From NCBI GenBank assembly GCA_019671135.1, contig JAHRHY010000001.1, positions 558,001 to 622,000 on the forward strand: DNA of 64,000 bases. Reading direction: 5' to 3'. The DNA comes from Linnemannia hyalina. Lineage: Eukaryota; Mortierellomycota; Mortierellomycetes; Mortierellales; Mortierellaceae. This document shows positions 37,838 through 52,621 of the stretch, one piece after another (the stretch's first letter is position 1; each line of letters opens with the position of its first letter). The notes below the pieces were generated by a model. The model was not told the origin of the DNA. It saw only the letters and a program-made list of their open reading frames with translations, and did not search any database. A program made the position numbers and the translations under genes.

Positions 37838-38707
37838 ATGGGGATTGGCTCTCTTTGAGCCTTCATCAGGAAGAAGGGTTACATGCCCCAACTCATACGA
37901 GGACTCTCCGGTACACCTCCATCACCAAGCTCCAAGTTCCGCGTGGACCTACTAGCATCATTCTACCCCCAATTTCGCTATCACTACCTAAACGACTCAT
38001 CCACCTTTCCTCAAGCGATCGAGCGGCATCTTATCTCCTGTGAGTTGCACAAGGAAACCTCGGTACTCTACCTCGACGGAATATCTCCTGTGGAGAAACA
38101 ACACACAAACTCCTTGAGGCAGGACAAACGCAATACCGCACTGGCAGGAGTGGAGGATTGTATCCGGGATATGGAAAAATCGCTGGAGGGAGGTCACACT
38201 CCACACAAGCCCGCTTTCAAGATATTAGAGAAGAAGCTCCGTGGCACATTCTACCTCGGTCAAGACTCTTGGATGGTGTTGGCCACATATCTACGCGGAC
38301 AAGGTTGGGACTTGCCAGAAGTTGCGTCCGAATCGGATGTTGCCAATGCTCGTGATTTCAAGTCTGGAGATGTCGCTACAAACCAGCAAATCGTCGGTAA
38401 GGGACAGGATCAAGAACATGAGCCAGATTCGCGGAGCATGTACAATGAACAGGAGCCTTTCCTGCAGATCCTCTTGAACGCTATCATGAACACGACACAA
38501 CCTGGTACAAAGGCGAATATGAGAAAAATCACCGCGAATATGGAGCTCGCCCGTGAGTTTTTCAACAGGATCAACCTGTTTGGCGTCTCGGGTCCACCAA
38601 CCAAGCCGCCTTATCCAGCATCAACAATAGCCCAGCCTGTCGCCAACCAGGTTTACGTGGAATTCAAAAAGCATTACAAGAATGGCTCCATGGAACTCTG
38701 CAGGAAG
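37838..38707 (+). pseudogene. Decayed, internally deleted relative of the XPG-Fanzor fusion
   Basis: This aligns by eye to the N-terminal and linker parts of the intact protein at 47112-51424. It begins ATG GGG ATT GGC TCT CTT then TGA (37856-37858), where the intact copy has MGVPLLW, so the Trp position carries a nonsense codon. It continues with FRVDLLASF, VLYLDGISPVEK, WMVLATYLRGQGW and ASESDVANA. The GDSDML motif that completes the XPG catalytic centre is deleted and the sequence jumps to the late linker (EPFLQILLNAIMN, FKKHYKNGSMELCRK). It stops at the same donor position (GTAATG at 38708) as exon 3 of the intact gene; the whole Fanzor half is absent. The open frame from 37883 to 38781 is the residue of this copy, not an independent gene. 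Confidence 0.75.
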
Positions 38708-38786
38708 GTAATGACAACTAGAACTAATGTTGCCGATGAAACTCTTTTAGGGATAGAATTCTTAAACCCTGCCTCATAAAGTGCTC

Positions 38787-40252: not shown

Positions 40253-42746
40253 TTACTTGGAGTGGCTGTTTCGGTGGTTGTTGTGGTTACTGTTGCTGTT
40301 GTTGGAGTTGTTGGAGCCAGTGGCTCCAAAGTTGGGTGTCGCGGCTCCCTTGGGCAAAGTAACCTGAGAGCGGAACTTGAACTCGGCCAGGATAGGGACG
40401 TGGTCAGATGGGAAATGTGCATTGGGGAATCCAACACATCGACTCATGTACTCCTTTTCAACACCACCCAGCAGACCCAAGACAGACAGGAAGTTGGACG
40501 AGTAAAAGATGTAGTCGATCTCGGCTGCGAACGTAGGCGTAAAGTTGGTAAATGGCAGCTCAACACCGTCACTGTACGAAGAGCGAAGCGACATCTTGTG
40601 GGAAAGACCTTCTGAGGTATAGGTTCCGTAGGCATGATCTCCAAAATCGTCGTGTCCTTGGGTGATCGCTCCCTTTACCAAGAACTCGTAAACTCCCGAA
40701 TGTCGCTCAGAGTTGAAATCTCCACAAATAAGGGTGGGAAGCTTTCCAGTCGGGTTGGAAGGAGGCGCGTTTGATCCGGATACTGGGAGATGGGCCCATT
40801 GAGTCGACAGCTTGTCGAGCTCGTCCATCATCATTGCCACCTGAACCAATTTGACATCCTTGAAAAGCGGGTCCCAGTAGACGTGAGTGTTGACAACAAC
40901 AACCTTGTTCTTGGTGTCCTTGTGCTCCAAAAGGGTGATAACTGCAATCTGATCCTTGGTCATCACACGATTGAAAATATCCTCAGTCTTCCTGAAATCG
41001 GGTCTTTGCAGGGCAATGTGATTGAACTCGACAAGATGCTTATCAATTAAGGTAAATCTATGCACGTGGAAGCGAAGTATTCAAGAATACAATAGAAAAG
41101 CGGGTGGGGGGTCAGTTGGCAAAATCCTGCAACGCTCATCGACTCACGTCGTTTCTTGAAGCATATACGCTGTCAGTTCCAAACTGAACACCTACTTGGA
41201 TGCCTTGAAGAAGGTGCCACAACCGTCGACAATCCTGCGATCCTTCTCGGGCATAGTCTTTGCACGCGACTTTGGCCAGAAGACACTGTCGTAATCCGCC
41301 TGCTGCTTCATCTGCTCCTTGAAGTAATCCTCGTATTGGCCCATTTCAAGTTCCTATTGATCACACCATGAGATCGTCGAAAAGTAATAGATCAGATATA
41401 CAAGAGGCATCAAATAACAACATATCGCGCTTTTTCGCAGATCACTGTGGACTGTACCTGAAGACAGACAATGTCGGCGCTGTAGGCAAGAATCTCCTGG
41501 AGAATAAGCTCCTTGCGGTACTCCCATGTGAGGGCCCAAGAAGGAGTGTAGCCGTACATCTGAGGGGTGGCATAGTTCTCCGCCAGGATGTTGTAGCAAA
41601 AGGTCGTGAAGGTGTCCGAGTTTGTCGATGAGGTGTTGTCCTCGAGCGGGATCCATTCTCTCTCAGGAGGTGGCAGGGGAACTACAATAGAATGAATTAC
41701 AAAGGAAATCGACGCGTTGAGTTATTTGTCTCGTCGGATCTCAAAATATAGGTTCCTACAGGGCTACCAAGTAACCTACCAGGACAGTTCTCGCGGAGGT
41801 AATTAATCACGGCTCCAGTGCCTTCCTGTTGCAACAAGTTCTTGAGACTCTCGTTCAAAGGGTTTCCTTCCAGCGCCAAGATGTCCAGCTGGTACAGCGT
41901 GCCCATCTCTGCAGGCAGGGTCACAAGTCCATTGTCGACCAACAAGAGCTCCTTGAGGTTGGTCAGCATGCCGATCTCTGGTGGCACGGATGTCAGTTTG
42001 TTGCCAGACGCATCCAAAATGGTCAGCTTTGTCAGTCGGCTGATCTCGGGCGAGAGGAGATGCAGGTTGTTGTGGTTGATGTAGAGGGCGGTCAAAAATG
42101 CATACTGGAACAACTCGCGACTCATGTTCTTGAGACCCATGCCACCAAGATCCAGTGTAGTCCACTGCTGAAGGTTGGGCGCCGTGGCATTTCCTGTCTT
42201 GTCTGCGCCTTCGCCATTGACTGCCCCGGCCTTGGAGGGGTTGTTGGGATCTGTAATGGTGATAGCCGAGCTCAGTCCAGAGCTCCTTGCCACCGCGGCC
42301 GCAGCTCTGGCGCGGTAGTGAGGCGTGGCAGACTGACGCGAGACGCTGGCATAGTGAATTTGCTGCTGATAATGGGTCGAGCCGGCACCGAGCTGGGGAG
42401 TCAACGCGGCCGGGATAGTTGCGGGAGAGGACAGACCCGATTGTTGACGCATCTGGTTCTGGTGGTGGTTATGCTGCTGTAAATGCTGGTGGGTCAATGC
42501 CTGGTGCTGCTGCTGTTGCTGCTGTTGCTGCTGTTGTTGCTGTTGAAACTTTTGGGCTAAGTTCATCTGGACAGGGTAACGAGGCACTCCGCCATTGTAC
42601 ATCGCCATACCATGTCCAATATGGTATCCAGAGTTGGCGGGGGTTCCGACCAGGGACGCAGGCGAGGACTGGGCAGGCGAGTAGACCTGGTTGGGGCCGT
42701 TGTTAAGGGCTTGGTAGAGAATAGGGTTGTAGTGTTGCTCAGTCAT
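40253..42746 (-). CDS. CCR4: CCR4 deadenylase, catalytic subunit of CCR4-NOT
   Basis: Poly(A)-specific 3' exonuclease that shortens mRNA tails. Exons 42746-41780, 41681-41458, 41353-41196 and 41057-40253, 717 residues. Seen: a Gln/His-rich N-terminus with a 13-residue polyGln run, four to five leucine-rich repeats about 195-305 (LTALYINHNNLHLLSPEI, LTILDASGNKLTSVPPEI) that bind the NOT1 scaffold in yeast, then the endonuclease/exonuclease/phosphatase domain: TTFCYNILAENYATPQMYGY, IVCLQELE (metal-binding Glu, split by an intron), FWPKSRAKTM, VNTHVYWDP, LICGDFNSE, EIDYIFYSS and HFPSDHVPI (catalytic Asp-His). The tail is Asn/Ser/His-rich. Its promoter side has been invaded by the transposon starting 875 bp upstream. 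Confidence 0.96.
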
Positions 42747-43611
42747 CGTTCAGTTGTTTGGGGCGTTGAGGTTATTAGGTGCTACGCAATTTGTGCTGCT
42801 TTGTTGGTGTGTTGAGAAGCGAATAGGCTTGACGGTAGGGGGGCAGTAAAAACGCGACGGCGTACAAAGAACGGTGGGAGGAGTGAGGAAACGGTGTATT
42901 GGGGCGAGTAGCAAGAAGGGAGGAGGAGGAGTGCGAGCACTGGTGAAAGTCCTGGAATAGTCGTGGCTATTTGAAAGGGTGCAGCGACAGAGAGACGAAC
43001 ACCAATGGTGAGGGTTAGGGGGACAGTTCCATGATAAGTATACAACTTCTTCATAGGTCTATCGCTCTGCCCATGGCGATTTTGTTTGTTGCAATTAACA
43101 AAAAGCGTTGTTCTTCTTCCTGCTCAGCTAGCGAGAAAGGGGCGATTGTTGTGTCCTGTTTATTATGCGTTGGTTAACAAGAGAAGAGTCTTTTGCCTGC
43201 TGCGTAGTATGACTACTGTTGTGGCACTGATTATGGACGAAGGGCACGCCACCTCATGGTAAAAAGGCGACCCCGTAGACTTGCTCGTCGTTGGCTTTGT
43301 TCTTCTGATGTCAACAAGAAGACCCACGCACACACAAACACACAATCTTCCTCGAAAGCTTGGGTGGAAGGGAGGTTGGGCTTACATCGTTGACGACTGC
43401 GTGAGTATTTTTTTTTTTTTTTCTTGTATGTTTTTTTTATTGGTATCCTGCTAAGAGGGGACGAAGGCACATTGGCCGCGAAAACAAAGAGAACAAGGTG
43501 GGAGGAGAAGGAGGGGAATGGAAAGGAAGAAAAGAATGAGTGTCCAAGAGGAGAGAAAAGACAAACGAAAAAGGAAAGCTTTTTGTGTTCAATTTATCGG
43601 TGACGTCGTTT
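42747..43611. promoter_or_regulatory. CCR4 upstream region, cut by the transposon
   Basis: Original intergenic DNA between CCR4 and the BLOC1S5-like gene, now separated from its right part by the 8-kb insertion. It contains homopolymer T tracts (about 43408-43422). TCGGTGACGT at 43597-43606, just outside the insertion, is also present twice inside the right end of the element. Confidence 0.45.
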
Positions 43612-43620
43612 GACATTGGG
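43612..43620 (+). repeat. Left target-site duplication, GACATTGGG
   Basis: Exact 9-bp direct repeat of 51580-51588, directly outside the terminal repeat; 9 bp is the size typical of Mutator-like elements. The flanking bases differ (T...T versus C...G), so the match is exactly 9 bp. Confidence 0.8.
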
Positions 43621-43643
43621 TCCGAGACAATGGGCGCATCAAC
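43618..43643 (+). repeat. Left terminal inverted repeat
   Basis: Matches the reverse complement of 51554-51579 at 23 of 26 positions; the inner 18 bases, GACAATGGGCGCATCAAC, are identical. The outer three bases (GGG) overlap the 9-bp duplication, so the exact element end is ambiguous by 3 bp. Confidence 0.8.
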
Positions 43644-43678
43644 CCATTCTGGGAAAAGTGGACTGCAATTCTCATTTC

Positions 43679-46600
43679 CTAATCAGGACCCAAGACACAT
43701 TCCATTTGACAGTGCATTTGACAGCACATGCACTTTCGACCGGCATGAACCGTGTTCAAACCCTTCACCCCAAGAAGAGTGCACTCAAGGTCTGCTACCG
43801 TGCTCTGAAAGTACTGAAGAGTGCACTTTCTTCTTTTTTTGGCGCGTGCCTCATCCCCCATCGACTTCAATAAGTGTAACAGTCTTTTCTCGCACTCGTT
43901 GAACTCAATTGCTCGCTCAGACTCCCTTAATTTCCTCCGCTCTGCTTTCTTCTCAGCACGGGCTAGCTCCATTTGAAGCACAACAAGAGGTACGATAACA
44001 CGCCATGCAGCTGGGATTTCATCCTCGCTAGACTCATCATCGTCGACCTCACCGCCATCGTTGATATCGTCGTCAGTCACGCCTTCATCCCGGACAAACA
44101 TGTCACTTCCGTCATAACTGATATCCATGCTATTGTAAATCCAGGAGACCAAGTACAGATGCTTGCAGGGCATTTTGTGCCGGACGTAGTCGGGGCATGT
44201 GCAAGAAAGAAGTCGAGCTGCTTGTGCGTCTGCGCTGACGGCGTACTTGACATCAGGTGTAGTGAAAGAATTGACAAAGAACTACAAATGAATAAAAAAG
44301 TCAGAGGGATGTAATAATACTTAGAGAGTATTTTCAAAGGTCAGCACACATGCAAAAACAGGTTTCTTACCTCATTGTTCTCGTCCAGTTCGGCAACCAT
44401 GTCCTTGGAGGCAGCGAGTGACAACACCGTTGCTTTTTTCTTTATCGCCTTATCATATTCTGAGAGTACAATAGGCTCCAATCCATGTACAACCTTGAAG
44501 TGATGCGTCCTGAAGTAATATTACGCCTGTCAGCAAATGAATCAGATCATCTCCACGCATATCACGGATATGTTCCATATGTTGCCTCTTCAAAGTCGCA
44601 TGCCAGCTTTCTACAAGATTGTTTGTGTTGATATGCTGGTAGTCCTGTTGACGGAGAAGGAAAAAAAGACATAGGTAAATATCTGCATTTTCTTTGGTTA
44701 TTTGTAATGATCAATGATCAAAAGACTCACCTCTCGTTGGTAAAGTACCCATCTGATCATTTTCTCTGGCTTCATCCAATTATTGTTGATATAATCGATC
44801 ATCGAGGTTTGACCCGGAAACAAGCGCTGAAAGTTGACCCATTTTTTCCTGTAGCTCGGCTTCTGAGTTCGCATACCGAACGGCATTCAAGGCCTTGCGC
44901 ATATCACGTAGGCCCGCCGTCTAAATCGAACAAACCAAAAACAAACATGCATAATTTAGCATTTGTGTGATTTGAAAAAACAACAACACGGTAACTCATC
45001 CCTTTATAGGTCAAAGTACGTACGCCTCAATTCGATGTATATGTTCACATACCCCAAGCACTTCGAGAAATCCGCGCGCTTTTCGCTCCCATGCTTGTCC
45101 CACATGAAACAAGCAGTAGTAGATCTCCAAGGTCGGAAATACCTGCTTTAGTGTTTCTGTCTCCGCGACGGAACAGTCGACCATGAACTTGGTAGCTTGT
45201 AGGCCGCAATCTGTCTTGAGCCAAGTCAGCCACTTTCTCAGTAACATGCTATAGTAGTAAGAAGAAAATATTGTGAGTACAGATGGATCGAATTATCATT
45301 AGTAAAAAGTAACGGATGAACGAACGAGCGAACGAACGAATGAAACATAATAAATCGCGATCACTCATGAACCAAAATCAATATATAACCTAATTGGGTT
45401 CACATTTATTATTTTCCACTTTCCAACGGCCCATTCGACGTTCACCCAACAAGACTTACATCGACTCAGAGTTGCAAACCATAAAAGCGATCGGTATTCC
45501 CGAGCGCGATTGTCGATCTTTGACCAGAATCGTAAACAAGTACGCGGTTCCGTTGGCCTTCGGATTGTTGGGGTCCGGTCTCAATGACTTGACTGTTCTA
45601 TGGGTTGAGTCCATACACACAATCCCTTTGTTGTTGGCCATAATCTACAAATGAAAATGAACCAACGTTAGCAGCAGTGGATTGATGAGCAGATGAGAAA
45701 AACACGTAAATGAGACAACAGATCTGCTCCACTTGCCCTCATCTGGAACGCTGTGCACCAAGCAAACACATAAAGGTGTTCGAAACCTTTGACCCCGTCC
45801 ATAAACATGGATTTCCCTCCTTCTTGTTGGATACTGTCAAGCCAGAGCTTGACGCTTGCCGTAGCATCATCATGCTTACGAGAATCTGCAATCTTGTGTC
45901 GATAGGCGGCTGTCCGAACACCGCCGTAGTGCATGTAAAGGCATGGAGGCATGGGACCGAGAGTTTTTTGTTTCTCAAGCTTTATGCACAACGAGCAAAG
46001 TACAAGAATATCGTTAGAAAACAAGTAAGTCAGATGAGAGAAGTGTCGTCCAGGCAAGGAAAAATAAAATGGCAAGGAATAGAATACCGTATCCATTGTT
46101 TTTTTGTCCATGCGCAGTTGCGCCTTGATCGCCTTCCAGCTCTGGCCTGCTTTGGCCTGTGCCCTGATCCATTCCAGCTCGTTCTTGGCCATGGGTAGTT
46201 TCGCTCTCTCTTGCGGTGTATCCGGGTGATTGCGGATGCGGGTATACTCTACTTCCACCCTGTCTTGAAGCAAGATCTTTCGAATCCTGATCATGGCAGG
46301 ACAGTTAACGCCAACAGAATCCCGTTTGAGGATCAATTCCTTGGGAGGGCGATGTCTCCTGCACCTGAATAGAAGGCTCCAGTCGTACAACCGTGGTGAA
46401 CCAGGTGCACCTGGCGCTGTTGCGTTTTTGGTGGGGAGAAGTTGGTCGATGTCGAGCTTTGTTTGTATGATATCCCCTTTTTTTCTGCCCTCCTGACGAT
46501 GCTCAAACTGCATCGCAACTCGTTCGTTGCGCCAGAACGTCCTATGTCGAGGAATATGCGAATGAGAATTTACTAGGATTCAAGCTTGAGTTTGCAAATG

Positions 46601-46769
46601 GCGTACTGTGGCTGTACCTGAACTCTTCACCTTTGAATACATGTGTCCATGTCGCTTGTCCGTCTTCCCATACCATGTCCTCCGGGGGTATATGATGTGG
46701 TGCGACCGGGAGCAACGGGTCAAAGTCCTCAGGGTAAAGGAAAACATCCCCAGCCCTCAATGCAGTCAT
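43679..46769 (-). pseudogene. MULE (Mutator-like) transposase with SWIM zinc finger, two +1 frameshifts
   Basis: DDE-type transposase. Exons 46769-46618, 46541-46088, 45979-45737, 45644-45460, 45248-45053, 44920-44731, 44644-44371 and 44281-43679, 764 residues if two extra bases are ignored. Seen: GIVCMDSTHRTVKS (first catalytic Asp), KFMVDCSVAETETLKQVFP (second Asp), YYCLFHVGQAWERKARGF, NTNNLVESWHATLKRQHMEH (catalytic Glu), and a SWIM finger CTCPDYVRHKMPCKH followed by an acidic tail. Exons 6 and 7 are each one base too long: an extra A in an A6 run near 44842-44847 and an extra G near 44509 break the frame. Intron 3 (45736-45645) uses a GC donor (GGGCAAGT). It may be a young pseudogene or carry assembly errors; mobility would then depend on another copy. 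Confidence 0.85.
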
Positions 46770-47111
46770 GCCTGGGAGGAGTTAGGGGGTTCAGATATGA
46801 AGGAAACTGGGAAAGGGAGTACAGGAAAGAAAGGCAGCAAAAGGGGTGTAGTGATGATAAGAAGTTTTTTGTTTGTTTTGTTCTTTCAAGGGACGGCTGA
46901 GCGCGGAGTTTGATTGGATGGGAGGAGTGAGACTTTTCCCGCTCTGATGCAACATAAAGGAGGGTGACGTAAATGCACCCTAATGAATATGTAGCTCGTT
47001 GTTGCTTCTTTTTCTTTTTTCTTTTTTCCTTCTTTACACTTCCAACACACACACCCACAACACACCCACAACACACCTTATTCACCCTACTCACCCTACT
47101 TTCTCGCCCTC
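46770..47111. promoter_or_regulatory. Shared promoter of transposase and XPG-Fanzor genes
   Basis: A 342-bp divergent intergenic region inside the element. The nuclease side is rich in CAACACACCC units and CCCTACTCA repeats (about 47040-47100), a likely 5' leader. No TATA box is evident. Confidence 0.4.
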
Positions 47112-50100
47112 ATGGGAGTTCCCTTGCTGTGGCCTCACATACGGCAGGAGGGTCATGAGGCAACTCTGCTTAGGCAGTTTCCTCAAGGCCCTTTACCCCC
47201 TGATGCCCTTTATCGTGTCGACCTCCTTGCCTCCTTCTTTCCTTCCATCCGACGAATTTTCTCCTCCAGCACTCACGACTACCTTACCTCCAACGTCATC
47301 TTCGAGCGACATCTGGTCTCCAGTCGTATCCCCAAGGCATCCTCGGTGCTTTATATTGACGGTCCATCCCCAGAGGAGAAGCGAGAGACACGGCAACTTA
47401 GGGAGGAGAAGCGCATTGTTGCATTGCAAAAAGCCCACATCTGGCTCTGCAACATGGAGACCCGAGTTGGTGGTCGGAGGAGGGTCAGGAAACGTGACTT
47501 CACCAAACTCGACAAGCTTATCAGAGCCGCCTTTTATTGGACTCCGGATGCCCGCGCCTCCTTGGCCATTTACCTTCGCGTGCAAGGATGGACGGTTATC
47601 GAGTGTCCTTCTGAGGCAGACATTGCAATAGCTATCGACTCTCAACCCCAGGATATTGTAGTATCGGGAGACAGCGATATGCTCATCTATGCCACCGTTC
47701 ATACCATATGGAGGCCTATTTCGCGAGGCAAATACCTGGTGTACGATCTTCCAAAGGTGCTGAGTTATCTGGGTATCTCGAGACTGGCATTGACGGTTCT
47801 AGGCATCGTTTGCAAGAACGACTACACGTCCAACTTGACTCGAATGGGGTTATCGACCAACATCAAGATTCTCAAATCCCTAGAGGAGATGAAAGGTAAA
47901 GCTCAATTGCCTTGTATGTTTTTTTTTGAAGATATACGCTAATGGAGGTTTTTCTGATTCAATAGCTTTTGCTTGACCTCAGCACCTTGCTAACAACGCT
48001 TCTGTCCATTTGTCTTTTACTATGATAGATCCAGCAGCTGGAGTAGAGCCAGTCACCGAAGCAAATGTCGAGACAATGGTCAAGCGGTACTTGGCTCATC
48101 CGGAAGTAGTCAGGAGGAACCCTGCCGCGACTCACTTCGAGGCAGCGGTGAGGGTTTTTGCTGGCCGGCAGTTCAAGGTCGCGGTTGCTACAACACCATC
48201 ACAGCCATCTGACCATACAAGCTCAACCAACTGCTCGACCCAAAAGTCTTCCGATCTAGCAGCGTTGCTTGAAAGGCTGCGTGTTCTTCGCCAGCGATTA
48301 AACGAGAACAAGAAAAGGTAAGGAGTTGTTCCAACGGCGATAACTTAACTGTAATTAAATGAATGAATTGTATTCTAACCTTTGTTTTTCTTCTGTGATT
48401 CTTTTGTAGTCTCGTTGCCGATCAACTGGTGCAACAGACGGATGTATTTAACCGGTACGCCACCGTGGACCGTCCGCCAGATCAGCGGCCTCCTCCTCAT
48501 TCATCAGGGAGAAGATACAAGCACCGCCAACGATATGCTATCAAGACCCGCTCTCAGGTTGTGAAGCATGAGCCACCAGAAGCCATGAAACAGAACCAAT
48601 GGAAACCATACAAGTCGGCCCCTGATTCTCCGTTGGAACCGCAGTCTGCCGTCTCTTCATCGAAACCCAAGTCACCGAAACGTCTGCCGTCTGCGGAGGG
48701 TATGGACAAGAAGGATCTGGTTAATGCCATGGCAAGGGACCACCCCATGCGAACACTTGACATTGGCACCGTCAATGCCAACGCAACCAGAGGCCTGAAC
48801 AGGGAATTTGGTCCAGAAGGCTCGTCTGTTTATCTTCCGAGGGTCAAGATCGCCCTTCGAGATATTGCCCATCAGTCGTCTCATGTCAAGCGGGTTTGCC
48901 AGAGGGCTATTGGCTTGTACCTGGAGCGCCTTGCACTCTCCATAAACGAGTCAGTGGTGCCAGCGGTGCCAGCGGTGCCAGTGGTGCCAGCGTTGCCAAT
49001 GGTCATGGATGTGGTGGGGACCATCGAGTCCGTCCAGCCCCTTCAACAGCAACCCCTTCAACAGCAACCCCTTCAACAGCAACCCCTTCAACAGCAGCCC
49101 CTTCGGAAGCAGGCGAGTAAGCTTCATGCTGAAGATCGCTTAATTCTCGATAAGCTATGCCCAAAGTTCACCGCCAAGGACATTGCTGACGGCAGAAACA
49201 TCAACGACGGCACAACAGAGGATCTCACCAAGCCCGATGATTCTGAGCACGATGAAACATTGGACAAAAAGAACGAACCCCTCCAGTTCTTGATGTGTCT
49301 GTTGAATGCCGTGTACTCTGGCAAACTGCCTAAAAGGCAGAAGGGGAAGGAAAAAGGGGGTGCACCCTCAATTGACAGTCCAAGCGCAGTCTGCACCTTT
49401 ATCGAACGAGCCCGGGATTTTCTGCCAGCAATCACGAAGGACGGGGACGGGCTAGAAAGGGACTTTGCGGGTTCGAGCTTTTTACGATCAACCGCCTTGC
49501 AACTGTCGGTTGAGCTGAAGAAGCACTACAGGAATGGTTCGACGGACCTTTGCGAAAAGGTAAAGATCGTTTGAATGCGAAAAAAATTACTATTGAATCC
49601 TTTGTTTAGACTTGGACGAACGCTGTTATTGACGCTCTTCCGTTTTTTCTATAAAAAAAGATTGCCCTCCTCAAGACGAAGAAGCTCCTGCCACTCGAAG
49701 CAAGGGATTGCGTCGATCCCGACATCACTGCATTTGAGAATTTCGTCCTTTTGAACAGGGTATGCGGCTGCCCCCGTTCATTAGTGCCGATGTCGTCTTT
49801 TGAAAACAAGTTTATCACTGTCTCCGAGTTGGAACTTGCAAGGATCTTTTGGCGGGATCCGATGTTAAAGACAGTGCTTCAATCCTACGCATGGCCCGAC
49901 TTTCCAAGTATCGAATACGCCGACCAAGTGTCTCAGACTGATGTCGGAATGTGGCTCTCTAGAGCAGTACCCGGTTGCCTTATCACGAAGTTACTCACTG
50001 ACATTGGGGGATACTCGGAGGTGGAACGGAAAAGGCTGCGGAGCTACTCCCGGTCGACTCGCCTGATGCCTCTTGAAGATACAAGACGACACATACAACA

Positions 50101-51424
50101 AATCCGACACGCTGACTTCCAGCCCACATCATACACGGACAAGGGCTATGTCCTCCATGGATCCATTCGGACTGATGGTTTCCGTCTCCAGCTCATCGCC
50201 TTCAAAATGAACGAGCTGCATTCCGTCAAGTACCGACAGTTACCGGCGGATCGACTCCCGAATCGTCTCACTTCCACTGTTGCCGGCACGGACTACTTTC
50301 TGACGGAGATTCGGAACGTGGTGTCTACCCCGCAGGACGTTGTCGACCTCTGGGGATGTGATCCGAAAAGAATCAAGATTCTCGGTATCGACTTGGGACA
50401 GGCGTTTGTGGTGGGAGCAAGCGCTTTATTACCCTCTCGCAACAAGCACCTTGACGCGGAAGGAGGTCCAGAGGGAGCCCAGAAGGATCCATTGGTCAAG
50501 CAACCTACGACAAAGTATTTCAACCTCGCAGTCAAGCAGAAAGCGGTGTATCAACCTACCCTCAAGCACCGGCGTTGGTTAGAGCAGAGAAAGGCACAGC
50601 CGCTCGAGGGGGGAGGATCCATCTGCCAGATTGAGACCAGTCTGCCCGCTCGCTTTGGTCCTGATGCGAGTATTGCCGAGTACACAACAAGGATGCAGGA
50701 GGTGGAGGCCCAACTGGGTTCCTTTTATGGTAGTGTTGTCTTGAAGAAGCATCGGTGGAACGCCAGGAAGGCTCGCGACGAGGAGTACCGTCTGATTGCC
50801 AATCGTTTGCTCGAGATGGTTGGAGGATCATTGGGAGCCAAGAGAAAGGAGAGCAACAAGATCGTCATTGGAGTTGGCCTGGGGCAGTTCTCTTCCAGGA
50901 TCAGGCTCTCGTCGCTGCACGAGTCTTTTGAGTCGTACTTTATTCAAAAAGTAAGTACGCTGAACTATTACTCTTCGTCTTCTGTTATCGTTGGGAAATG
51001 CAGCATGCGGAGACTAACTATGTTATATTTTGTTCTTTTTCTCTATTAGGCACGATCGCTTGGATACATTGTTGTCGGTGTAAACGAGTATTACACTTCA
51101 AAGAAGTGCCCAACTTGTGGAGAGTTCGTTGGCCAAGTGGATCTCCGGCGCCTGTACTGTTCAGAGTGCAAAAAGTACATGCATCGAGACGTGATGGCCG
51201 GTCACAATATCTGTAATGTCATTCGTGGCCACCTCCTCAAGCAAGAGCGACCGCGCTACCTCCAGCCCAAGGACATTGATGGCAATTATCCCTGGGAAGA
51301 GAAACAGAGTTTCAGGCCCCGCCCTGAGGGATCTGGTGCTGGTGGGCACAAGGGCAAAGGGGTCAAACGAAAGGCGACCGACGAGGGAACAGATTCCAGT
51401 CAATTCAGGAGAGTAGCAGTGTAG
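47112..51424 (+). CDS. XPG/FEN1-like nuclease fused to a Fanzor (TnpB-like RuvC) nuclease
   Basis: Exons 47112-47895, 48029-48317, 48410-49559, 49661-50950 and 51050-51424, phases consistent, 1,295 residues without interruption. The N-terminal ~270 residues are an XPG/FEN1-family domain: MGVPLLWPHI, RVDLLASFF (Asp37), VLYIDGPSPEEKRETR (Asp83), ECPSEADIAIAI (Glu168, Asp170) and VVSGDSDMLIYA (Asp187, Asp189), the expected metal ligands. About 300-750 is a disordered linker with PLQQQ and VPA repeats. The C-terminal half is Fanzor: ILGIDLGQAFVVGA (RuvC-I Asp985), VIGVGLGQF, VNEYYTSKKCPTCG (Glu1184; Cys1191/1194) with YCSEC (Cys1208/1211), and MHRDVMAGHNICN (RuvC-III Asp1218). Glu placed just before the zinc ribbon (EY.TSK) is characteristic of Fanzors. 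Established: Fanzors are RNA-guided DNA endonucleases. Inferred: this protein has two nuclease centres. The C-terminus is basic (KGKGVKRKA), possibly nuclear targeting. Confidence 0.9.
49038..49099 (+). repeat. In-frame 15-bp tandem repeat in the nuclease linker
   Basis: About four copies of CCCCTTCAACAGCAA encode repeated PLQQQ. A GTGCCAGCG repeat (about 48955-48999, encoding VPA) lies just upstream. Both keep the frame. Confidence 0.85.
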
Positions 51425-51579
51425 TTTTCTATTTAGATCATTTGTGTATAAGCAAATACATATGATCGAGTTTGGGTTCCGGGAGAACGCACGACTACTC
51501 ACTTCGGTGACGTAGTTTGCGTTTGGCGTACGACTTGTTACTTCGGTGACGTAGTTGATGCGCCCATTGTCCTGGAACC
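51425..51579 (+). ncRNA. Candidate guide (omega/f) RNA scaffold at the right end
   Basis: This is the 155 bp from the Fanzor stop to the element end. In characterised Fanzors the guide RNA comes from the 3' end of the gene and runs out through the element terminus, so the guide would begin near 51580. Seen here: ACTTCGGTGACGTAGTT occurs twice (51501-51517 and 51540-51556). Each copy can form a hairpin with a UUCG loop closed by C-G: TCAC/GTGA (51499-51510) and GTTAC/GTGAC with one G-T pair (51537-51550). No transcript evidence exists here. Confidence 0.4.
51554..51579 (-). repeat. Right terminal inverted repeat
   Basis: Reverse complement matches 43618-43643 at 23 of 26 positions, with the inner 18 bases identical. 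The second 17-bp subterminal repeat (51540-51556) overlaps its inner edge. Confidence 0.8.
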
Positions 51580-51588
51580 GACATTGGG
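51580..51588 (+). repeat. Right target-site duplication, GACATTGGG
   Basis: Exact copy of 43612-43620, directly outside the right terminal repeat. Confidence 0.8.
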
Positions 51589-51652
51589 GACAAAGGTGTC
51601 CTCCCCTCGTGCAAGTTCCTTTTCAGCTTTGCCACCATTAAACTACTACGCC

Positions 51653-52621
51653 ATGCAACACGACTCGGGAACACCACCAAGAGCCACCACACCGGCACCA
51701 GGAACAACTGGTACTTACGCCACAGAATAAATTACAAAGGTCCAACTTCCCATGTATACAACACAAGTCTTGTTGGAAACAGCAACTGACATCGAATCAT
51801 TGGCCATCAACTTGCCTTCTTTTAGACGTTCACGCTCTCTACTCTCGACTCCTTGGCAACCCACAGGCCAATGCCAACAAGGCTATCTCTACCTTCCAGG
51901 AGGAGTTTGAAGTAACGTACACAGCATATCGTGCGACCCTTCTACACTATTCTTTTTTCGTTCGTATCTTTCGTCTTCATTAACCGTGCCTCCAGCTCTC
52001 GCACTTCAGTCTCAACCTGACTCATCCTGCTCACTCAAATCTCCTCAATTGTTCCATACAACTCGCTAGGCCAAGAAGACCCTATTCATGGAAAAGGATG
52101 ACGAAACTGTGTCAACGCTTCAACAGATTCCAGCCCAATTGAGCAGCGCCAAGGAGCACCTGGATAACAACCTCAGTGACACGCAGTCAACAGGTGAGTG
52201 GTGACTACCACCAACCACCTTTTGGTGACTACGATTCTTGGACTTGGCGGATCAAATTGACATCTTCTTTCTACCTTACTCCATCTAATTCTTCATTCGC
52301 TTAGCAAAACTAGCTGTTGAAAAGCTGCAAGCATTACAACAAGCTATCGCCGCGAACTCGCAGGTAAGAAGACAGGTACTCTATCCCGAACACCCTACGA
52401 CACGTTAATTTACGCCCGATTTTCCAGTTGTTAACCATATTTTATCATTCCTTTTCTAGGCGCGTGAAAAATCTGCCAACCCAACACGATCCGCCAAGGA
52501 GGCTTTTGAGAAAGACATCAATGATGCCAGAGAAGCATTCGATCAGGAAATGGCCCTTCGACATGCGGATGTGGTGAAGCAGTATGTGGGAGCATTTGTC
52601 AATCAAATCGACTCCTACTGA
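51653..52621 (+). CDS. Small coiled-coil protein resembling BLOC-1 subunit 5 (Muted)
   Basis: Exons 51653-51710, 51826-51911, 52070-52193, 52305-52363 and 52460-52621, phases consistent, 162 residues; every exon is too short to stand out alone. Seen: a Pro/Thr-rich start, DVHALYSRLLGNPQ, then FQEEFEAKKTLF and heptad-like helices to the end (LAVEKLQALQQAIAANSQ, AFDQEMALRHADVVKQY). The LYSRLL...EEFE.K pattern followed by coiled coil recalls the Muted/BLOC1S5 family of endosome-lysosome trafficking complexes. This was judged by eye and is tentative; another small coiled-coil subunit is possible. The start ATG lies 64 bp after the transposon's right duplication, so the original promoter is largely displaced. 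The 3' end converges on CMC1, 283 bp away. Confidence 0.65.

Follow-up and report, generated by a model that had tools for sequence, protein, structure and literature searches.

A transposon of the MULE/MuDR (Mutator-like element) type spans positions 43612–51588, flanking duplications included, of a 64,000-nt window of DNA from Linnemannia hyalina (Mortierellaceae); the window is the whole stretch analyzed, and positions given without a contig refer to it. The element carries a transposase gene and, divergent from it, a gene that reads as a single protein harboring an XPG/FEN1-type nuclease followed by a Fanzor-like RuvC/zinc-ribbon nuclease. The interpretation favored here, with somewhat better than even confidence, is that it represents a transposon type of Mortierella-group fungi combining a DDE–SWIM transposase, a fused XPG–Fanzor nuclease, and a right-end guide RNA, in which the nuclease would serve to re-home the element.

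Ends and Copies of the Element

The terminal inverted repeats lie at 43618–43643 (plus strand) and 51554–51579 (minus strand), are complementary at 23 of 26 positions, and rank first among the 19 inverted pairs in a scan of 43300–51900. An exact 9-bp target site duplication, GACATTGGG, occupies 43612–43620 on the left and 51580–51588 on the right; with a duplication of this length, the element proper begins at 43621. Inverted ends of this quality and an exact 9-bp duplication had been claimed in a preliminary description of this stretch, and both are found in place. These repeats, together with a 9-bp duplication seen in two copies as two different repeats, are features of the MULE/MuDR superfamily.

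The second near-complete copy lies on contig C8 (L009, 341.7–349.7 kb) and aligns end to end with the window copy (C1), differing from it by 78 substitutions over 7841 aligned bases and by 17 gaps. It is flanked on both sides by a different 9-bp duplication, ATCGCGTGG, and shares the same right end, as expected of a further copy of the element, although near-complete copies number only two. The right tip is also retained by a left-truncated, internally deleted copy on C21 and by the last 125 bases of the element alone on C22, and it is identical to the base in all four places. The left tip is known from two copies and differs at three bases between C1 and C8, assuming a 9-bp duplication in both. 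A chance origin of the ends was rejected because four places with unlike flanks carry this right tip. When the flanks of the window copy are joined as an empty site, a search of this assembly returns only the two flanks themselves. As judged from these comparisons, the element is one delimited two-gene unit with its own ends and two different duplications.

The Fused Nuclease

The nuclease gene lies on the plus strand and comprises five exons, with inferred splice sites, that form one open frame of 1295 residues without a stop. Exon 1 (47112–47895) encodes the XPG/FEN1-type domain (residues 1–261), assigned by sequence and profile comparison. Exons 2 (48029–48317, from inferred splice sites) and 3 (48410–49559, from the spliced frame) encode a linker. 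Exon 4 (49661–50950) harbors the Fanzor-like WED domain with its TDG motif and RuvC-I with D985, assigned from motifs and family patterns, while exon 5 (51050–51424) supplies the Fanzor-like zinc ribbon and RuvC-III, assigned from PF07282 and motif spacing. The frame is also open in the C8 copy, and the earlier claim of a divergent gene with two nuclease-type domains is thereby borne out.

Two protein searches, which gave 5 of 3801 candidates and 107 of 8000 scored, yielded 108 distinct related public proteins. A third search (alignment A3) gave 12 matches among 7875 candidates, all from the Mortierella group, and leaves the occurrence of the fusion outside this group undecided; five proteins added from it and the window protein bring the set to 114. 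The named sources of the 108 proteins are all Mortierella-group genera.

The XPG half resembles the RAD2/XPG/FEN1 nucleases. The family profile matches RAD2, FEN1, EXO1, and GEN1 in the PDB, with RAD2 giving the best E (2.2e-12). Among the 108 and five added proteins, 50 have an XPG stretch longer than 190 residues, and 38 of these cover all seven acidic active-site positions; all seven residues are kept in 34 of the 38, the exceptions being P0083, P0111, P0092, and P0082. The positions are those of the FEN1 active site, placed through the RAD2/FEN1 alignment of the profile search. In contrast to those nucleases, the XPG half of the window protein is fused to a Fanzor-like nuclease and is borne on a transposon.

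The C-terminal half scores 51.8 bits for the PF07282 zinc ribbon/TNB domain, against a cut-off of 26.3. The motif D-X(125,275)-[TS][TS]XX-C4 zinc finger-X(5,50)-RD, given for Fanzor/TnpB in PMC3627910, is present as D985, TSKKC at 1187, and HRD at 1216. Residue counts for this half use patterns fitted to the XPG–Fanzor family, their denominators being the pattern-matched proteins among the 114. The WED TDG motif, a Fanzor1 feature, is found in 50 of 52 such proteins and the alternative glutamate, which precedes the zinc finger by six residues, in 49 of 54. A PDB sequence search matched LaTranC, mimivirus L79, and TnpB, and no chain named Fanzor. In NCBIfam, guided_TnpB is found in four of four proteins and flap-endonuclease in three of four, all with scores below the curated cut-offs.

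Three results for the nuclease weigh against the proposed assignment and function. The window protein scores 15.6 for Pfam XPG_I, below the cut-off of 24.9, as do its relatives P0028 (23.5), P0009 (21.6), and P0014 (18.5); a fourth relative, P0025, passes at 26.2. At RuvC-I, the DPG that is near exclusive among Fanzors according to PMC10711439 occurs in 0 of 44 proteins, which have DLG (42, including the window protein), DMG (1), or DVG (1). The C-terminal half is therefore filed, from its sequence, as a Fanzor-like clade and not as a canonical Fanzor. The third result concerns constraint. Between C1 and C8, the whole gene has a nonsynonymous divergence (dN) of 0.0041 and a synonymous divergence (dS) of 0.0211, with dN/dS pairs of 0.0068/0.0435 for the XPG part, 0.0009/0.0201 for the linker, and 0.0036/0.0030 for the Fanzor part. 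This comparison shows no constraint on the Fanzor half because four of its five differences change an amino acid.

A more distant comparison, with the relative on C25, covers four exons without stops and gives proportions of nonsynonymous and synonymous differences (pN/pS) of 0.269/0.725 for exon 1, 0.26/0.752 for exon 3, 0.18/0.667 for exon 4, and 0.156/0.602 for exon 5, with synonymous sites near saturation.

Since the splice sites were placed from sequence, the two halves might instead be separate neighboring genes and the fusion an artifact of gene models. The 34 of 108 database models that have no XPG match, 28 of them under 1000 residues, would suit such an arrangement. Nevertheless, this is very improbable because profile searches match both halves in 74 of the 108 proteins, some matches being partial (22 residues in P0079), and one protein with the same order of halves recurs in database models from many species. 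Furthermore, P0025 reaches the cut-off of each of three Pfam families, XPG_I, XPG_I_2, and PF07282, and the spliced frame has no internal stop in either copy. In the genome, 34 of 84 XPG matches form loci above 60 bits, and 26 of these are followed, within 5 kb on the same strand, by a Fanzor match. The distances of the XPG and Fanzor halves are also correlated over 35 proteins (r 0.71, reached by 0 of 2000 shuffles).

A second XPG–Fanzor relic, internally deleted and with a stop near its start, is found in the window at 37838–38779 (plus strand), some 4.8 kb to the left of the element. An end-like stretch, AACAGGACAATG, lies near it at about 37664.

The Transposase and Its Pairing with the Nuclease

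The transposase gene occupies 43690–46769 on the minus strand, an approximate outer limit from a partly resolved model of several exons, of which exon 1 is 46769–46618. The open frame of the SWIM zinc finger exon (43679–44281, minus strand) scores 21.9 bits for PF04434, above the cut-off of 19.6. The MULE domain, on a piece read through a break in the frame, reaches 26.1 bits, just below its cut-off of 27.6. The residues D, D, and E and the CxxH motif were assigned by eye, with CLFH between the second D and the E, after the C/DxxH signature given in PMC10045372. Thus, of the MULE transposase with DDE and SWIM motifs that had been announced, the SWIM finger stands and the MULE domain falls narrowly short, in a frame that is interrupted in exon 6. 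This interruption may be an assembly error. The C8 copy has a 38-base deletion in exon 2, and with the frame broken in both, neither near-complete copy looks autonomous as assembled.

The transposase N-terminal domain has 11 matches in the genome, seven of them at loci above 90 bits (C1, C8, C25, C9, C6, C19, and C13). XPG–Fanzor sequence lies within 5 kb of six of these seven, head-to-head at C1, C8, C25, C9, and C6 and on the same strand at C19; around the C13 locus, none is found in the 9.9 kb examined. At C9 the XPG part is missing, and at C6 a weak remnant of the nuclease is left (E 1e-7). When the DDE part is used instead, an XPG or Fanzor match is found no more than 8 kb away at 6 of 19 loci (binomial p 5e-6, three of the six being one family), among them C5 with a head-to-head fused gene. 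The sequences therefore indicate a recurrent pairing of XPG–Fanzor with close kin of the transposase. On L013 (C25, 6444–9901), a transposase N-terminus head-to-head with XPG adjoins a PIF1-helicase-like fragment, which appears Helitron-like by eye.

Seen from the nuclease, the pairing is far less regular, which tells against the favored interpretation. A transposase match of this kind lies no farther than 8 kb away at only 4 of 26 fused loci (C1, C8, C25, and C5) and is lacking at the other 22; the fused gene consequently occurs far more widely than the two-gene unit. The claim that the two genes move as one unit is thus supported by the delimited element in its two near-complete copies and by the pair in its diverged relatives, but it is qualified by most fused loci and by the broken transposases.

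These findings bear on two other explanations. In the first, the XPG half would serve the transposase: as the MULE transposes, it would trim flaps or gaps left at the donor or target site. Nucleases of the XPG type have 5′ flaps as substrates, and Academ transposons encode an XPG-like nuclease. The target site duplication lengths of two Academ lineages, moreover, seem related to the helicase or nuclease encoded (PMC10045372). The genome also contains 37 weaker XPG matches (27–31% identity) among the 84, a multi-copy XPG family with a listed Fanzor place within 5 kb at 0 of 37; XPG genes without Fanzor therefore exist in this genome, and this family is perhaps another mobile XPG gene. Service to the transposase is nonetheless considered unlikely, given that XPG is fused to Fanzor and not to the transposase, and that most fused loci have no transposase match nearby.

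In the second, the fused nuclease would be a passenger or host-useful gene, acting for example against other mobile DNA, that rides on MULEs. The many fused loci without a transposase would fit, as would a nuclease frame that stays open where both transposases are broken. This explanation is assigned a small probability: the RNA predicted at the right end is contained within the element, with the terminal repeat as one of its stems, and the pairing recurs at nearly all loci of the closest transposases.

The Right End as a Candidate Guide RNA

The candidate guide RNA scaffold at 51436–51579 (plus strand) was delineated by folding and covariation; an Rfam search of 51380–51700 yields no match with an E of 1 or below. 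It is predicted to consist of hairpin A (51436–51467) and a three-way junction with two UUCG hairpins, the junction being closed by pairing of 51475–51484 with 51570–51579, the element's last ten bases. The stretch 51440–51579 folds at −59.7 kcal/mol, as compared with −37.4 ± 3.4 kcal/mol for shuffles (z −6.63, reached by 0 of 200).

Counted in stems chosen from the same sequences, and over few independent families, the closing stem is paired in 50 of 50 cells from five places (C1, C22, C25, C49, and C8:57k; C25 and C49 are identical, giving four distinct sequences), and hairpin A is paired at its base in 23 of 25. One pair of the closing stem occurs as C-G, U-A, and A-U, and two pairs of hairpin A are changed on both sides. 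The closing stem forms with a bulge in C8 and C21 and, judged by eye, poorly in other families. For the named core hairpin, 86.9% of cells are paired, versus at most 47.7% when it is slid, and only 4 of 500 shuffles attain its paired cells and its covariation score.

The right-end motif pattern occurs 56 times in the genome, its reversed control 0 times. Eighteen occurrences follow a same-strand Fanzor match at a distance of no more than 1.5 kb, where about 0.07 would be expected, and one lies beside an opposite-strand match. A right-end model also matched three loci outside its training (L014, L018, and L022). On sequence grounds, the structured right end is a probable guide RNA. In TnpB and Fanzor systems, the guide is positioned beyond the right end. 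Here the scaffold probably stops at the element tip and the guide begins with the right-hand duplication, since the duplications, each 9 bp long, are not the same in the two copies.

A stretch of 1.46 kb (G000:C1:239134-240597) has the motif facing outward at both sides and is a possible non-autonomous derivative.

Several results argue against a guide RNA. Diverged right ends fold weakly: of six, C25 has a z of −3.77 and the other five range from −2.18 (C12) through −1.84 (C6), −1.73 (C17), and −1.11 (C44) to −0.31 (C3:127k). The count of double-changed pairs in the core hairpin is reached by 128 of 500 shuffles, and RNAalifold, applied to 14 right ends, does not recover this hairpin and returns another six-pair fold without a double change. 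There is no adjoining same-strand Fanzor match at 38 of the 56 motifs (37 have none nearby on either strand), and 4 of the 18 that adjoin one depend on matches overlapping the motif. In 10 of 19 other sources (L012, L015, L020, L023, L024, L025, L026, L028, L045, and L050), the right-end model finds no match, and the two target sites establish no target-adjacent motif.

The fold might alternatively be a DNA feature, either a transposase-binding palindrome or a promoter site like the cAMP response element (CRE). It overlaps the terminal repeat, its TGACGT resembles a CRE site, and covariation support from the conserved core by itself is weak. However, a palindrome or promoter site is an improbable explanation. 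The motif is one-sided, with just one outward-facing pair within 12 kb among the 56, and the left end shows no fold beyond chance (z −0.26 over 100 bases and −1.14 over 140 bases). The stems are partly kept through G-U states, and among 14 right ends the loop reads UUCG in 11, UUUG in 2, and UCCG in 1. The Fanzor1 guide RNA scaffold described in PMC10711439 likewise uses the terminal repeat.

Insertion Site

The element is inserted about 870 bp before the start of frames at 40253–42749 (minus strand) that resemble a leucine-rich-repeat and exo-endonuclease-phosphatase protein, CCR4-type by eye. Its left flank at 43596–43611, TCGGTGACGTCGTTTG, is like the element's right-end hairpin at 15 of 16 positions (0 of 500 single-base shuffles); at the C8 target site, no match like this 16-base stretch was found. 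Both target sites share TTGGGGACAA (p 0.05).

Proposed Mechanism

It is hypothesized that a structured RNA is transcribed from the right end and that, with its scaffold ending at the element's last base, the flanking DNA would supply the guide. Excision of the element by the transposase, or a homologous site without the element, would be the trigger. Under the guide, the Fanzor half would cut the empty site, the XPG half would trim or resect the 5′ ends, and repair would copy the element back into the cut site. Cas12-type nucleases leave 5′ overhangs, and a 5′ nuclease fused to a 5′-overhang cutter would favor resection and repair by copying. The earlier suggestion that the nuclease may protect or re-home the element stays conjectural, though the probable guide RNA at the right end now lends it support. 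We infer splicing, the existence and guide role of the RNA, RNA-guided cutting, XPG activity, 5′ resection, and re-homing from the sequence features described above.

A broader proposal, which we put at somewhat less than an even chance, is that these proteins, spread across Mortierella-group fungi, form a clade of RNA-guided nucleases of eukaryotes that has not been described before and that carries a second nuclease in the same chain. Their Fanzor half would cut at the site set by the guide, their XPG half would resect or unflap 5′ ends and so steer repair toward re-copying, and the transposon tip would double as the guide RNA's final stem.

Relation to Known Systems and Implications

Whether the unit is undescribed, as had been suggested, depends on the part considered. 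Fanzor was reported in MuDr-type fungal elements in 2013 (PMC3627910). The Fanzor1 elements ROr-4, PBl-3, and MCi-4 (from Rhizopus, Phycomyces, and Mucor) share with the window element MuDR-like inverted ends and 9-bp duplications. Unlike the latter, they do not encode a MuDR transposase according to that account, the main text of which does not contain the term XPG. A full-text literature search, with supplements outside its reach, found nothing pairing Fanzor with XPG, Fanzor with Mortierella, Mortierella with Mutator-like transposable elements, or Academ with XPG in DNA transposons; for Fanzor with FEN1 it turned up what is listed as a review of large-cargo integration. Fanzor in MuDr-type elements is therefore already known, while the fused XPG–Fanzor design was not found in the searchable literature.

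In the ascovirus SfAV, the guide RNA scaffold of Fanzor1 derives from the terminal repeat and a short duplication (PMC10711439). The RNA predicted here is also at the right end with stems that include the terminal repeat. In contrast, the short duplication is part of the scaffold in SfAV, as described there, and Fanzor1 is the sole gene, whereas the 9-bp duplications of the present element differ between copies. SpuFz1, GtFz1, and PpFz1 (PMC11423790) resemble the window protein in being RuvC and zinc-ribbon nucleases with a glutamate just before the zinc ribbon. However, most Fz1 proteins have 600–700 residues by that account, and the XPG-type N-terminus sets the much longer window protein apart.

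The benefit of Fanzor to eukaryotic transposons is an open question, and the unit bears on the hypothesis that it aids retention of the element. With a transposase gene, a nuclease gene, and a candidate guide RNA within one pair of ends, this hypothesis becomes directly testable. If the proposal is correct, nature would already provide a precedent for tying targeted cutting to end processing, in a protein that joins an RNA-guided cutter to an enzyme of the 5′ flap/exonuclease type.

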